From Dolosigranulum savutiense (GTDB lineage Bacteria > Bacillota > Bacilli > Lactobacillales > Carnobacteriaceae_A), in assembly GCF_039830095.1 (NCBI RefSeq), contig NZ_CP142435.1:1178001-1242000 (forward strand): a stretch of DNA of 64,000 nucleotides, read 5' to 3'. Under the pieces are notes generated by a model. It saw only the letters and a list, made by a program, of their open reading frames with translations, was not told where the DNA came from and made no database searches. Every line of letters starts with the position of its first letter. Position 1 is the stretch's first letter. The position numbers were made by a program, and so were the translations under genes. This document shows positions 12,691 to 47,265 of the stretch, in pieces.

Positions 12691-12717
12691 GAAAATGATA
12701 GCTAATATCTCTTCACG

Positions 12718-12792
12718 CAATCACTTTCCCTTCGCAAGCACTAACTTGACAGGTTCGATGGGTATCTCTCAGCATAACGCACCCCAAAATGA
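12718..12792 (-). promoter_or_regulatory. TPP riboswitch (THI element) of tenA
   Basis: Minus-strand sequence carries the THI-box signatures in order: GGGGTGC, GCTGAGAGATACCC, GAACCTG, and GCGAAGGGAA. These match the conserved thiamine pyrophosphate aptamer core. A terminator hairpin follows at 12661-12690, indicating transcriptional attenuation when TPP is bound. This element fills most of the 323-bp gap between tenA and tRNA-Thr. Confidence 0.95.
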
Positions 12793-12932
12793 TCTCTCTA
12801 ATTCTATCTCAACTATATCATAAGTCCTAACAGAATAAAATGAATTTGTTTATTATTCCGGAAGAATTCAAGGGGATATCTTGCATTCTTGGACTAAACA
12901 TGATACAATATTACTGTTGTGAGGATAATTAT

Positions 12933-13005
12933 GCCGACATAGCTCAGTAGGTAGAGCGCATCCATGGTAAGGATGAGGTCACGGGTTCAAATCCCGTTGT
13001 TGGCT
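12933..13005 (+). tRNA. tRNA-Thr (anticodon GGT)
   Basis: 73-base cloverleaf. Acceptor GCCGACA pairs with TGTTGGC including a G-U; the anticodon stem CATCC/GGATG encloses ATGGTAA with anticodon GGT; the T arm ACGGGTTCAAATCCCGT is standard. It is a single tRNA, immediately followed by a tandem repeat. Confidence 0.96.
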
Positions 13006-14373: not shown

Positions 14374-15129
14374 ATGATGAAAAAATATATCTATTCAGAA
14401 CTATACCGAATCAAACATATTCGAATGTATATCGCATTATTTTTCATAACAATTTTACTACCGATAGCTACAACAGCTTTTCTTTCGATAATTTCTCTCC
14501 AGCAGACGGAGCCTACTACGAAAGAATTTGGTTTGTATTCATTGTATATGTTAATATTTATTGGTTTTTACTTAGCCTATCCGATTGTTATTTGTGCGAA
14601 CACAGTGAAACCTAAATACGTTGAACGACAAATTTTGTCATCAGGGATTACAAAAAACATTCTATATTTTTCTGATTTATTTTATATTAACATTATCCAA
14701 CTAATTATGTTAGTATTGTATTCGGTGTCTAGTATCATATCGACTACCTTACTGTTAGAAAGCGCTCCAGGGGCAGAAAATTCACTGGACTTAGTTACCG
14801 TGAAAGAATTTATAATAATGATGTGTTGTATCTATATAACTATGATATTAGCTAGCGTCATACTATATAGTTTACAGTTAGTGTTGAGCAATAAAATTTT
14901 TGCGACAGGATTATTTGTCTTTTTAGGCTATGTTATTCCATTAATTATTGCACAAATTAGATACTTTTTAGAAATAGTAGATGCAGTTGCTCAAATAATT
15001 CCGTTTTTACAAATTGCCTTTTTCTATAAAGGGGATAGTCCATTAAGTATGTTATTGCTTATTCATGGTATTTGGATAGCAGTGACCATTATGATATGTA
15101 ACACGATTTATAACAAAATAGAAGCTTAA
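14374..15129 (+). CDS. ABC-2 type permease
   Basis: 251-residue protein with six hydrophobic segments, N-terminal basic SELYRIKHIRMY stretch, and the general look of ABC-2 permeases paired with BcrA-type ATPases. Two successive ATG codons (14374 and 14377) are possible starts. It lies between its ATPase and a 60-residue membrane protein and ends 26 bp before the latter. Confidence 0.85.
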   Translation: MMKKYIYSELYRIKHIRMYIALFFITILLPIATTAFLSIISLQQTEPTTKEFGLYSLYMLIFIGFYLAYPIVICANTVKPKYVERQILSSGITKNILYFSDLFYINIIQLIMLVLYSVSSIISTTLLLESAPGAENSLDLVTVKEFIIMMCCIYITMILASVILYSLQLVLSNKIFATGLFVFLGYVIPLIIAQIRYFLEIVDAVAQIIPFLQIAFFYKGDSPLSMLLLIHGIWIAVTIMICNTIYNKIEA

Positions 15130-15572: not shown

Positions 15573-16895
15573 GAAAAGTAGTTCGTACATTTTTCTGAAT
15601 TGCAACAAAAGATGCAATAACTTTTTGGTGATATTTTCTCTGTGTAACGATAGTGCTTCTGGGCCTTTCAGGAGGCAATTGCCTCCTGAAAGGCTTCAAA
15701 TTTTTCGTTAGCTGATAATCCATCAAATAATAATCGCGGATAGTCATTAATTGTTTTCTCGATTTCTTTTATTTCATTCAAGCTCCATTGACTAATGTCA
15801 CTCCCCTTGGGAATAAATCGCCGAAGAAGTGTATGCATCTGTTCATTTGATCCCCGCTCATAGGAACTGTAGGGCTGACAATAGAATATATGAGTCCGTT
15901 TATTCTCGCGGGATTTGACAGTCCCTTCTAAGGTCTCATAATCTAGAAATTCAGAGCCATTATCCACTGTAATTGATTTAAATTGCTGTTTGAACCGCTC
16001 GGTCCCCAAAGAGTCTTCTAATTCATCTAGTTGTTTTAGCACTTGGGCCTGTGTTTGACTCGTCATTTTTCGAATAATCGATTTTCGTGTTTTTCGTTCA
16101 ACGAGAGTTAACAGACATGTTTTACTGTGTCCTTTCCCAGATTCGACACAATCCATTTCCCAATGTCCTTCTTCTTCTCGATTGTTTATCGACTCACTTC
16201 GGTACTTAATCAATCGGTTAGGGGGGACAACTTTTTTTCGTTTCTTGACGTGATGATATGGGCGTCTTTGTGTTTTTCCTTCTCGGGGCAAATGGTCTTG
16301 TGTTAACTTCTCAAACTTATTATCATCAATATAATGATAAATTGTTCTTAAACAAGGGAGTTGATCAGGGGTGAATGTATCTCCTTTTTTTAAGCGTTGT
16401 AGCGCTGCATAAGGCGAATATTTTTGCGAAATAATAATGGTTTCTATTGCTTTTAAGACGGGGTCCCCAGGACTAAACTCTGGATCTGGTCCTTTATTTG
16501 TTTTTCCTTTATCAATCTTTTCTTGGGCAACACTAGCGGAATAGATGGTATATTCTCTCCATAATGGATCCTTTTGAGTCACTTGGCCACGTTTTAATTC
16601 TCTTGAAATGGTGGATGGATGAACCCCTAATTCATCTGCCATATCTGCTTGAGTCAATCGCTTATGCTTAGGGAGCTGGGGATTTTGACGAGCCATTTTT
16701 TCTAAGTATTCCCGATCATCTTCATCTAAATGTTTACCTTTTGGCTTTAATTTGGTACACTTAACGTGAGTCATATTTCTCTGTCCTTTCTGTATGGTGT
16801 GGATACTATCAGATTAACAGAGAATATGGCTTTTTTTAAGTGTTTTCCTTCTTGCATTTAATTATACAACTCACCTAGTTCGTACATTTTCTGAT
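15573..16895. mobile_element. IS30-family insertion sequence, ends approximate
   Basis: A complete IS30-type transposase gene lies inside. Both flanks carry similar sequence around AGTTCGTACATTTT at about 15588 and 16877, each next to a CAGAAAA block that reads inward from the two ends with interruptions. A second weaker inverted similarity (CTCTGT..TAA..GATAGT) lies nearer the gene at about 15638 and 16810. The exact termini and target duplication cannot be fixed by eye. The element lies in the AT-rich patch between the ABC operon and the HEPN gene. Confidence 0.6.
15668..16774 (-). CDS. IS30-family transposase
   Basis: 368-residue DDE transposase, apparently intact. An N-terminal helix-turn-helix (LTQADMADELGVHPSTISREL, about 40-60) recognises the ends, and the integrase-like core has Asp208 (HWEMDCV), Asp271 (TVDNGSEF) and Glu311 (RGSNEQMH), the IS30 pattern. 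Its last codons lie in a palindrome CTTTCAGGAGGCAATTG that continues symmetrically across the stop, which may act as a hairpin end. No frameshift is visible. Confidence 0.95.
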   Translation of the reverse strand: MTHVKCTKLKPKGKHLDEDDREYLEKMARQNPQLPKHKRLTQADMADELGVHPSTISRELKRGQVTQKDPLWREYTIYSASVAQEKIDKGKTNKGPDPEFSPGDPVLKAIETIIISQKYSPYAALQRLKKGDTFTPDQLPCLRTIYHYIDDNKFEKLTQDHLPREGKTQRRPYHHVKKRKKVVPPNRLIKYRSESINNREEEGHWEMDCVESGKGHSKTCLLTLVERKTRKSIIRKMTSQTQAQVLKQLDELEDSLGTERFKQQFKSITVDNGSEFLDYETLEGTVKSRENKRTHIFYCQPYSSYERGSNEQMHTLLRRFIPKGSDISQWSLNEIKEIEKTINDYPRLLFDGLSANEKFEAFQEAIAS

Positions 16896-17005: not shown

Positions 17006-18016
17006 TCAAGCTCCTGGGGTTATCTTATTTTTTATGCGTTTTTTTAAGTCAGGTAGCAACGTTGCAGGGTTTTTCTTTAATTCATTGAAGATAAACTCTA
17101 CTAGCTCTTGTGAATATAAATATCGATTCATATTTTGGATAAATAGACTGTATTTCTTTTTGTCTTTTATATCGTAAAATTTGTTGAATAATTGAAAATC
17201 ATATGTGTTGAACTTTCCTTGTGATATTTCACCTGATACTTCTCGATGAATCTCTATTGAGTGAGATTTGAGGCGTCTATTGACAAGACGTATAATATCA
17301 TTGGTTTTATGAGGGTAAATGTTATTGACATCTTTAATATCTTTGACAACATTTATTGTTGCTTCAGCATTTTTATCAACAAACGCATGAATATCAGCAT
17401 CTTTTTTATCTTTGGTTAAATAAAAATATGTTGCAACTGGTCGAGCAAAGGCTACAGAATTGGAGTCTATTAAGTCCTCAACTTCATTTTGTTCTTTTAA
17501 AAAACGCTCAATCATATCAGGCGTATATGTCATTCGTAATTCCTCTTCAGTTAGTTCTTTTGCTTTAATTGTTAAAGTTAAAAAGTTTTGTTCTACATAA
17601 TTATTAATCGATATATCATGGAATTCTTTTATTTTAGTTGAAAAGTTTTCGACGCATGATTGAAATAATGGTGCATAAATATATTCATAGTCTTCTGTAA
17701 TGAAATGAGTACTAATATTTCGTAGGTGTACAATCCGTTCAATGTTTTTGCGTAACGGATCGTGTTTGTTTGTGAAAATTTGTTGGATACATTTCTCTAA
17801 ACTAATCGTCCGTTCTGGGTTATCTCTGTAATAAATTTCTTGTTTTCTATTCAATAGCTCTGCCTTCAGCATCAACTCCCATGCATTACATATAAAGAAG
17901 CTAAAACCTTCTATACGGTATCGAATAGTGGGTTTATTATAAATTTCAAGCCCCATAATGAAAGCTTCAATACTTTTATTAATTAGTCTATTTTTTAACA
18001 TTATATCCATATCCAC
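17006..18016 (-). CDS. DUF3644 protein with HEPN-type RNase motif
   Basis: 336-residue protein matching the DUF3644 family. The N-terminal part (KSIEAFIMGLEIYNKPTIRY, GFSFFICNAWELMLKAELL) is the family signature, and RNISTH near residue 100 fits the Rx4-6H motif of HEPN nucleases. Family members occur in phage-defence contexts, so an RNA-cleaving abortive role is plausible but unproven. AAGGA lies seven bases before ATG 18016. It starts 25 bp after the stop of a Cys-rich membrane protein gene and probably shares its transcript. The IS30 element lies just downstream. AT-rich composition fits acquisition by transfer. Confidence 0.82.
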   Translation of the reverse strand: MDMDIMLKNRLINKSIEAFIMGLEIYNKPTIRYRIEGFSFFICNAWELMLKAELLNRKQEIYYRDNPERTISLEKCIQQIFTNKHDPLRKNIERIVHLRNISTHFITEDYEYIYAPLFQSCVENFSTKIKEFHDISINNYVEQNFLTLTIKAKELTEEELRMTYTPDMIERFLKEQNEVEDLIDSNSVAFARPVATYFYLTKDKKDADIHAFVDKNAEATINVVKDIKDVNNIYPHKTNDIIRLVNRRLKSHSIEIHREVSGEISQGKFNTYDFQLFNKFYDIKDKKKYSLFIQNMNRYLYSQELVEFIFNELKKNPATLLPDLKKRIKNKITPGA

Positions 18017-18041: not shown

Positions 18042-18623
18042 TTATTCATGCCATGTAAACTCTCTTAGATTTAAAGCTTTGGAACTTCCAATGACACGGT
18101 TGCCACTCTGTGTGGTGGTAAATATTCCACGTTGATGATCTTCTGGGGACCAGTCTTCGTGTCGGCCAATGACAAAGCCTGCAATACTTTGGGCATTATT
18201 TGCGACTTCTAAGCGTTCTTCTTCGGTTAGTTCAAGGAAGCCGTCATCTGTTTGTAAGAGGAGATCGTTTCCTCTGTATTCTAATTTTTGGACGAATAAG
18301 GCCCAAGCAAAATCATAATTAGGTTCGCCATCTTCTGTGGGATTACCATCACTATCTAATGTTCCAAGAGCGTATCCTCTGTTCTCTTCCATATACTCAG
18401 CTATTTCATTATTAATCACTTCATAGGATTCTTCATCAGCTGTTTCCACGGTTTCTTCGACCACTTGTTCAGTAGCTACCTCTTCAGTTGGGGGCGCTTC
18501 TTTGGTGTTGTCAGAATTACTAGTAAACGGTGAAATACCTACTAATATAACGATAATCGTAAAGATGGTACCTAAGCAGCCTGAACAACCGAGACAACCC
18601 AAACATCCTTTTTTATTTTCCAT
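18042..18623 (-). CDS. Cys-rich N-terminus, single-pass membrane protein, unknown
   Basis: 193-residue protein. The N-terminus GCLGCLGCSGCLG carries four regularly spaced cysteines directly before one transmembrane helix (about 18-32), then an acidic Glu/Thr/Val linker (40-70) and a predicted extracellular domain of about 120 residues ending in LNLREFTWHE. No lipobox in the classical position is evident because the cysteines precede the helix. AGAAGGA precedes the ATG, and TATAAT (minus strand, about 18710-18715) could be its -10. It lies upstream of the DUF3644/HEPN gene. I do not recognise the soluble domain. Confidence 0.75.
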   Translation of the reverse strand: MENKKGCLGCLGCSGCLGTIFTIIVILVGISPFTSNSDNTKEAPPTEEVATEQVVEETVETADEESYEVINNEIAEYMEENRGYALGTLDSDGNPTEDGEPNYDFAWALFVQKLEYRGNDLLLQTDDGFLELTEEERLEVANNAQSIAGFVIGRHEDWSPEDHQRGIFTTTQSGNRVIGSSKALNLREFTWHE

Positions 18624-18793
18624 GATAGTTCCTTCTTTCTATAAGATTGTAATTTTATTTTGAGTTGAATAATTTTATCAATAATCTGCCAATAGCTTTC
18701 TATATCTCTATTATACGCATTTTAGGGTAAAATAACAAAATATTCACAATGATGACTTAAATAGAGAATGATTCAAATTATCCTGAATTTTAT

Positions 18794-18821
18794 TTGACTT
18801 TTTTCTGAGTTGTGCTATAAT
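18794..18821 (+). promoter_or_regulatory. Promoter of the short hairpin RNA
   Basis: TTGACT at 18794-18799 and TATAAT at 18816-18821 are 16 bases apart. No reading frame of useful size follows; a hairpin terminator starts within ten bases. Confidence 0.75.
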
Positions 18822-18827
18822 ATAATT

Positions 18828-18882
18828 AGAAAGTCAAGGCACTTCCCCGCCAACCCGCCGAAGTGTCTTGGCTTTCTTTTTG
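18828..18882 (+). ncRNA. Candidate small RNA of about 50 nt with a C-rich loop
   Basis: A consensus-like promoter is followed directly by a long stem (GAAAGTCAAGGCACTTC region at 18829-18845 with GAAGTGTCTTGGCTTTC at 18860-18876, one or two mismatches) closing a loop CCCGCCAACCCGCC, then TTTTTG. The transcript would be little more than the hairpin. C-rich loops of this kind pair with Shine-Dalgarno sequences in Firmicutes regulatory RNAs. It fills the gap between the Cys-rich protein gene and the YugP-like gene, both on the minus strand, so it is not simply a gene terminator. Confidence 0.6.
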
Positions 18883-18960
18883 TCTATATTTCTTATTGTC
18901 TGATAATTTAAAAAACACATTGCCCAATGCAATGTGTTTTTAGTCCGTTTTAAAAGATAG

Positions 18961-19656
18961 TTAGCGGCGGTTTTTGTTAAGGACAAATAAGCGGAGAATG
19001 TTTAAGAAGGAAGCTGTTGCGGTAGCAACATATGTCAGAGCTGCTGCAATGAGTATTTTTTTGGCTTGTTGGAGTTCTTGTCGATTCAATATTTGTTGTT
19101 CATCTAAGATAGCTAAGGCGCGCTTGGAGGCGTTGAATTCAACCGGTAAAGTAACTAGCTGAAAGATTAAGGTTAGTGAGAATAATAAGAGTCCAAAGGC
19201 AATTAAATATTGTCCGCTGTTTTGACCGAATAAGACACCGAGAATTAGGATGGGCATGGCTGCCATTTGTCCGAAGTTCGTGATTGGAACTAGATTGGAA
19301 CGTACTTTAAGTGGGGTGTAATCAGTCTCGTCTTGCAAGGCATGACCAACTTCATGAGCGGCTACTCCAATGGCTGCAACGGAGCTGGAATGGCGTGTAC
19401 TTTCGGATAGACGCAAGGTTTTTTCTTCAGGGTGATAATGATCGGTTAATTCGCCACGAATTCCTTCGAGGCGCACATCAGTGAGGCCATTAACGTCGAG
19501 CAGTTGACGGCAAATAACAGCAGCGGTTTGTTGATTAGTAGCTTCAACTTGGCTGTATTTATTATAGGTCAGATGGATGTATAGATTAGCTAGCGTCGAA
19601 ATACCGACACCAATTAAGACTAAGTAGAAATATGGATCATAGAATATGGTAAACAT
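18961..19656 (-). CDS. YugP-type zinc metallopeptidase
   Basis: 231-residue membrane protein of the neutral zinc metallopeptidase family (B. subtilis YugP). Motif HEVGH (101-105) supplies two zinc ligands and the catalytic Glu; an N-terminal helix and two or three C-terminal hydrophobic segments anchor it. AAAGGAG eight bases before ATG 19656 decides the start. Physiological substrate unknown. Transcribed alone, divergent from galT. Confidence 0.92.
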   Translation of the reverse strand: MFTIFYDPYFYLVLIGVGISTLANLYIHLTYNKYSQVEATNQQTAAVICRQLLDVNGLTDVRLEGIRGELTDHYHPEEKTLRLSESTRHSSSVAAIGVAAHEVGHALQDETDYTPLKVRSNLVPITNFGQMAAMPILILGVLFGQNSGQYLIAFGLLLFSLTLIFQLVTLPVEFNASKRALAILDEQQILNRQELQQAKKILIAAALTYVATATASFLNILRLFVLNKNRR

Positions 19657-19906
19657 TGCACATGCTCCTTTATAGGCCTTCAATTTAACGCGATTATCCT
19701 CATTATAGCACTAGTGGTGGGGGATAAGAAGATAAATTATTAAAGGAAATATGATAACTTTGTGAATAAATATGTTTTTTAATGAGAGAAATTTGAGTGA
19801 AGGACTCTCGTTGTACTTAATTTTGGGAACTATAATGTAATGGATGGGTTATTGCGTGAATCTATGATAAAATGAAAGAGAAGTGAGTATAGAAAAGGGG
19901 AGTAAT

Positions 19907-21397
19907 ATGGCGACTATTTCACAATTAATAACGGATTTTGTGGCGAAGAGTATTGAGATAGGGACGTTGAATGCATTAGATCGGATCTATACAGAGAATA
20001 AGTTGTTGCATATATTTGAATTAAATGAATTACAGCCAGTCGAGCCGAGTGATCCTTTACCGGTGAGTCGGTTAGATATTTTAGATCAGTTGATTCAGTA
20101 TGCGGTAGAAGCAGAGCTTATTGCTGATCGTGAAGCAGATCGGGATACGTTTGGAGCTCGGCTGATGGATACGACGACTCCGCTATCTTCAGAGGTGAAC
20201 CGGACATTTTGGGAAAAACATGCAGAGAGTCCGCAAGCAGCGACCGATTATTTTTATCAGTTGAGTCAGCAGACTAATTATATTAAGACGCGGGAGATTG
20301 CCAAAAATATTGCATTTACACATGCATCGGAGTTTGGTGAGATTGAGATTACGATTAACTTGTCGAAGCCAGAAAAAACGACGGAAGAAATCAGACTAGC
20401 ACAGCAAGCTAGTTCAGATTATCCGGTGAATAAGCTGTGCATTGAAAATGAAGGGTATTACGGGCATATTGCACATCCGGGTCGCAGTAATCATCGGGTG
20501 ATTCGTTTTGGTCTAGGAGAAGATGGCAGTGATAAGTGGGGCTTTCAGTATTCACCCTATGTGTATTATGATGAGCATTCGATCTTTTTCTCATTGGAAC
20601 ACCGGCCAATGAATATTAATGGGACAACGATTCGTAATTTGATCGAAGTGTTGGAGTATTTACCTCATTATTTTGTCGGGTCGAATGCAGGCTTGCCAAT
20701 TGTTGGGGGGTCAATTTTGTCACATGATCATTATCAAGGGGGAAATTATACTTTCCCACTGGATAAGCAGGCAATGACGTATGAATTTGAATTGAAAGAC
20801 CGTCCAGTGAAGGCGGGAATTGTGGATTGGCCAATGTCAGTTATTCGCTTGCAGTCAGCGGATAAGGAAGCGATGGTAGATGCAGCAAGTTATATTATTG
20901 AGCAGTGGCGAGCGTATAGTAATGAAGCATTAGGTATTTTGGCTCAGACGGAAGGGACGCCTCATAATGCGGTGACGCCGATTTTGCGACGTGATGGTGA
21001 GTGCTTTATCTTGGACTTGGTGTTGCGCAATAACCGTACAACGGCGGACTATCCGGAAGGGCTGTTCCATCCACATCCAGATGTACAGCACATTAAGAAA
21101 GAAAATATCGGTTTAATCGAAGTGCTCGGCTTAGCAATTTTGCCACCGCGCTTGAAGTCTGAATTACAAGCTGTACAGGATGCGCTATTGGGTCAAGCGG
21201 TGGACGTGGCAGAGATTCATCAACCGTGGCTTGAGCGGATGAAAGAGAAGTATACAGATGTTACAGCAGATAATGTAACAGAGATTGTTCAGTCTGAGGT
21301 AGGGAATATTTTTGTTCGTGTCTTGAAAGATGCGGGAGTCTTTAAGTTAGATCAGGCAGGGCAAGCGGGATTCCGTGAATTTGTCGATTCATTATAA
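19907..21397 (+). CDS. galT: UDP-glucose-hexose-1-phosphate uridylyltransferase, class II
   Basis: 496-residue GalT of the Firmicutes type, transferring UMP between UDP-glucose and galactose-1-phosphate in the Leloir pathway. The active-site stretch GGSILSHDHYQGG (267-279) is present. AGGGGAG precedes ATG 19907; an upstream in-frame start at 19883 lacks a site. No galK, galE, galM or galR is nearby. Instead tsaB starts 12 bp downstream, making galT the first gene of a run with tRNA-modification genes. It may therefore work with Leloir genes elsewhere, or supply UDP-sugars. Confidence 0.94.
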   Translation: MATISQLITDFVAKSIEIGTLNALDRIYTENKLLHIFELNELQPVEPSDPLPVSRLDILDQLIQYAVEAELIADREADRDTFGARLMDTTTPLSSEVNRTFWEKHAESPQAATDYFYQLSQQTNYIKTREIAKNIAFTHASEFGEIEITINLSKPEKTTEEIRLAQQASSDYPVNKLCIENEGYYGHIAHPGRSNHRVIRFGLGEDGSDKWGFQYSPYVYYDEHSIFFSLEHRPMNINGTTIRNLIEVLEYLPHYFVGSNAGLPIVGGSILSHDHYQGGNYTFPLDKQAMTYEFELKDRPVKAGIVDWPMSVIRLQSADKEAMVDAASYIIEQWRAYSNEALGILAQTEGTPHNAVTPILRRDGECFILDLVLRNNRTTADYPEGLFHPHPDVQHIKKENIGLIEVLGLAILPPRLKSELQAVQDALLGQAVDVAEIHQPWLERMKEKYTDVTADNVTEIVQSEVGNIFVRVLKDAGVFKLDQAGQAGFREFVDSL

Positions 21398-47103: not shown

Positions 47104-47120
47104 TGAGTTACAATTGAATA

Positions 47121-47203
47121 GAAGTACTAGGGGAGCGACAAGCTGAGAAGAGATATCTGACCCTTTGAACCTGATCTAGTTCATACTAGCGGAGGGAAGT
47201 GCG
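47121..47203 (+). promoter_or_regulatory. TPP riboswitch (THI element) of ykoFEDC
   Basis: Signature segments occur in order: AGGGGAGC, GCTGAGAAGAGATATCTGACCC, too long a stretch to quote fully, then GAACCTGATCTAGTTCATAC and GCGGAGGGAAGTG. They match the TPP aptamer core. A terminator follows at 47266-47302. Confidence 0.95.
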
Positions 47204-47265
47204 GTAATATAATAGGTGTGAAGTTTTGCTAAGCAGAACTCGCATTGTTTATGGACAATTTTTAC

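Follow-up and report, generated by a model that had tools for sequence, protein, structure and literature searches.

We found a near-consensus promoter running directly into an intrinsic terminator hairpin (18794-18881) on the plus strand of a 337-bp gap between two minus-strand genes (18042-18623 and 18961-19683) of the window, the 64,000-nucleotide stretch of the host genome that was analysed. No convincing protein gene was found in this gap, and the nearest likely plus-strand gene upstream of the hairpin ends at 15129, so that none there would need this terminator. Judging from the sequence, the unit is likely to produce an RNA of about 50 to 57 nt, since its strong promoter and stem were neither reproduced by shuffling nor matched elsewhere in 464 kb of the host genome. 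With about an even chance, this product would be a stable, lineage-specific small RNA with a single hairpin, transcribed from a minimal sigma-A unit. The first-pass annotation had described the same anatomy (promoter, stem with a C-rich loop, and T run between minus-strand genes), which sequence and fold confirm, and had proposed a very short RNA gene with a product of about 50 nt that pairs with ribosome sites through its loop. The length agrees with our prediction, and an RNA gene remains the likeliest reading of a promoter, start and terminator lying in register, but the mechanism did not hold up.

The promoter (18794-18821) was read from the sequence and by a promoter scan. It has the -35 hexamer TTGACT (18794-18799) and an extended -10 element made up of TGC and TATAAT (18813-18821, with the hexamer at 18816-18821), scores 11/12 with a TG before the second hexamer, and has a spacer of 16 nt ending in TGC. 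With the usual 7-nt spacing after the -10, the predicted start is A18828, and the stem begins with this same base at its 5' end. The 5' arm (18828-18845) and the 3' arm (18860-18877), AGAAAGUCAAGGCACUUC and GAAGUGUCUUGGCUUUCU, form 18 pairs, two of them G-U; in other words, AGAAAGTCAAGGCACTTC, counted from A18828, pairs over its full length with GAAGTGTCTTGGCTTTCT across the loop CCCGCCAACCCGCC (18846-18859). This loop of 14 nt includes 10 C and two CCCGCC units, is single-stranded in the fold, and a pattern search showed it to be unique in the genome. On the 3' side of the hairpin there is CUUUCUUUUU, and the T-rich tract of the terminator (18873-18881) overlaps the 3' arm and ends the unit at 18881. 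The minimum free energy of the hairpin is -28.0 kcal/mol, compared with -10.2 +/- 2.5 for shuffled sequences (z = -7.0), none of which equals it. Promoter and terminator are therefore in register, as in a short transcription unit with an intrinsic terminator, and their spacing predicts an RNA of about 54 nt (18828-18881).

Chance is a poor explanation for this arrangement. Among 1,000 dinucleotide shuffles of the 337-bp gap, a promoter scoring at least 11/12 appeared anywhere in 18 (1.8%), and in none was such a promoter followed by a stem of at least 8 bp near the start. A 464-kb sample of the host genome, consisting of the window and 20 further stretches, held 288 promoters scoring at least 10/12 and 133 terminators, with three cases of the former directly before the latter where 0.8 were expected. 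The unit at 18794-18881 is by far the strongest of these and the only pair that combines a score of 11/12, an extended -10 and an 18-bp stem. The hairpin alone is ordinary for the host genome, since long stems are frequent among its terminators (14 of the 133 have at least 18 bp); what is unusual is the promoter and the C-rich loop of 14 nt, one of the two most C-rich loops among the 133 terminators.

As the anatomy suggests, RNA polymerase would start at A18828, transcribe the hairpin and stop there; the product of about 54 nt would consist of one blunt-ended 18-bp hairpin, a single-stranded C-rich loop of 14 nt and a U tail. Paired 5' ends are expected to resist 5'-end decay by RNase J in Firmicutes, and the base-paired 5' end of this RNA should shield it in the same way. 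On failed termination, a second hairpin with A/T arms (18911-18941), the terminator of the convergent peptidase gene, might serve as a backup stop, and the RNA would then reach about 115 nt. The likeliest use of such an RNA would be pairing of its exposed loop with a few G-rich sites, although any function through the loop is a guess. We consider it unlikely that the unit is a genus-specific regulatory RNA in which a single terminator hairpin, perhaps controlled by iron, acts on G-rich sites only via CCCGCCAACCCGCC. Transcription of the unit would make it an autonomous sRNA gene of very small size, in which the terminator is the whole molecule and the loop its only free surface, and a compact test case of loop-only antisense action in the order of the host.

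The host genome (1.98 Mb in one contig) is the sole member of its genus in our comparison, which covered 26 other genomes of the family and 395 of the order. The peptidase has orthologues with 53-62% identity in the family, and the sequence downstream of the gene was read in 23 of these genomes (L034 was left out). A terminator is mostly kept in this position and the gene order differs, while the promoter, the hairpin unit and the neighbouring gene 18042-18623 are absent beside the peptidase gene in all 23. The first-pass annotation had named loss in close relatives as evidence against its proposal, and at the level of the family the unit is indeed not kept. Searches by DNA, by loop pattern and by R1, a covariance model of the hairpin, found no homologue of the promoter-hairpin in the 26 other family genomes, and R1 found none in the order (395 genomes) either; the conservation across related species expected of a C-rich-motif sRNA was thus seen at neither level. 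The unit is, by these searches and the absence of an Rfam match, probably lineage-specific at best.

Several candidates from these searches were rejected. The R1 matches in the family and the order, which lacked the promoter and the loop, were either long hairpins resembling terminators or copies of a hairpin repeated in genome G063, and a 38-bit minus-strand match in the family search was the hairpin's own palindrome. Matches of about 20-50 bp at the DNA level (60 relatives, plasmids and phages) covered only the promoter half in those inspected, before ordinary genes. Allowing at most one mismatch, the loop pattern occurred at 36 places in the family, with no comparable hairpin among the loci folded, and in viral contigs the matches listed were too numerous to be informative. 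A search of genome contigs with the peptidase returned distant relatives only. Rfam 15 gave no family at gathering score in the gap, the best match being frnS at a sub-threshold 23.1 bits (cut-off 60). As for the hairpin of G063, a genome of another family, it is a long one (AAAGCCAAGTCACTTCC...GGAAGTGACTTGGCTTTT) repeated at about 12 places (L242 and L253-L263) and resembles a dispersed palindromic element.

The gene convergent to the unit (18961-19683, minus strand) encodes a Zn_peptidase_2 protein. The gene on the other side (18042-18623, minus strand), with a likely divergent promoter found by the promoter scan (TTGTTA-17-TATAAT, 18710-18738, minus strand), encodes a 193-aa protein without a match in Pfam, NCBIfam or PADLOC; its only relatives, partial and 33-34% identical, are on two lactobacillus plasmids, and none was confirmed in viral contigs. 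In this protein, a membrane segment is preceded by a cysteine/glycine repeat, CLGCLGCSGCLG. Next to it, 17006-18016 (minus strand) codes for a DUF3644 protein with an EC042_2821-like endonuclease domain and a strong match to the PADLOC candidate defence protein PDC-S19, adjoined by what, judged from the sequence, is an IS30-type transposase-like gene (15668-16774). The low-G+C stretch (about 0.31-0.39) that holds the 15668-18016 genes starts after a tRNA gene (12933-13005) and looks like a small defence island. The window also contains two TPP riboswitches, at 12710-12796 (minus strand) and 47119-47214 (plus strand).

An insulating terminator combined with a fortuitous promoter accounts for nearly as much as a small RNA does, and we regard it as a real possibility, somewhat short of an even chance. 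An ordinary, possibly two-way terminator would guard the convergent peptidase gene from antisense transcription by stopping plus-strand transcripts, including those from a fortuitous promoter in the adjacent AT-rich intergenic DNA; it would also back up the peptidase gene's own terminator, and the short RNA would be a functionless by-product. Arms such as AGAAAG/CTTTCT and stems of 18 bp are common features of the host genome's terminators, terminator-like hairpins elsewhere in the genome and the order share the structure and the stem letters, the peptidase terminator is about 33 bp away, and the loop is not conserved. However, it is rare for an extended promoter this close to consensus to line up so exactly with a stem, and plain terminators do not usually have 10 C in a loop of 14 nt. 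Read on the minus strand, the hairpin has a poor U tract after it, AATTATATTATAG. If the unit is not transcribed, it would show that convergent genes may be insulated by promoter-terminator pairs.

That the RNA acts in trans by blocking AGGAGG ribosome sites with a C-rich motif, in the manner of FsrA, RoxS/RsaE, IsrR and the csRNAs, seems quite improbable. The loop is C-rich and single-stranded, and the UUCCCC at its 5' edge, half within the stem and the sole part resembling known C-rich motifs, could pair with GGGGA. Of the 339 ribosome sites considered (those of ORFs that have a Shine-Dalgarno match, from crude gene calls), 17 contain GGGGA; the GalT gene at 19907, for example, is preceded by GGGGAG (-13 kcal/mol). 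However, no UCCC or CCUCC run lies wholly within the loop, and CCCGCC is not complementary to AGGAGG, being mismatched in the middle of GGAGG. Its perfect partner, GGCGGG, was found in only one of the 339 upstream regions, compared with 72 for AGGAGG and 100 for GGAGG. Duplexes of the loop with ribosome sites had a mean energy of -7.06, no gain over 60 permuted loops (-7.16 +/- 0.28), and strong ones were fewer (22 versus 32 +/- 6), while control windows inside genes gave 34, more than the ribosome sites. Elsewhere in the genome there is no strong complement of the loop, only two places with three mismatches over 17 nt. Complementarity to ribosome sites is not above expectation, and since the duplexes are no better than permutations and GGCGGG is so scarce, the proposed pairing with AGGAGG-type sites is unsupported and we see no evidence of a general anti-Shine-Dalgarno role. 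The lack of an Rfam match also counts against the suggested kinship with C-rich-motif Firmicute RNAs.

Control by iron appears very unlikely. Between the divergent promoters, at 18764-18782, there is a Fur-box-like palindrome, GAGAATGATTCAAATTATC, that might govern the hairpin unit and/or the divergent gene. The genome encodes three FUR-family proteins, and 16 of the palindrome's 19 letters are shared with GAGAATGATTATCATTATC, a site before the gene of a Peripla_BP_2 lipoprotein (iron-siderophore-binding type); these 16 letters match exactly at those two places of the genome only. We give this little weight because the palindrome was noticed post hoc, fits the textbook Fur consensus at only 14/19, a chance level reached roughly every 15 kb, and does not overlap either promoter, its end lying 11 bp before the -35. 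Other, weaker matches inspected were not beside recognisable iron genes, and the palindrome may be taken as a weak lead, in which only the match to the genome's own site is suggestive.

Returning to the small RNA, known systems provide several points of comparison. The small Firmicute RNAs IsrR (Staphylococcus), FsrA (Bacillus) and RoxS/RsaE have single-stranded C-rich regions, some of them in loops (PMC9410917, PMC5419742), and such a region is common to them and the predicted RNA. However, IsrR has several stem-loops, C runs and a separate terminator, whereas here the one hairpin is the terminator itself; in addition, G interrupts the C runs here, and neither conservation nor a Shine-Dalgarno bias was found. 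In the csRNAs of streptococci, which belong to the CiaR regulon, an unpaired anti-Shine-Dalgarno/anti-AUG stretch separates two stem-loops, and there is a TTTAAG-N5-TTTAAG repeat (PMC3091779). The csRNAs and the predicted RNA are alike in being short, with a strong promoter, an intrinsic terminator and a stem-loop structure, but the latter does not have two stem-loops with an unpaired anti-start stretch, and no NTTAAG-N5-TTTAAG upstream of a -10 occurs in the gap, only a single TTTAAG on the other strand. Compared with ordinary terminators of the host genome, the hairpin is similar in stem length, A/T-flanked arms and U tract, and differs in having a strong promoter, not a gene, directly before it and a long C-rich loop. 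Considered together with these systems, the unit is a candidate short sRNA of an already known general kind.
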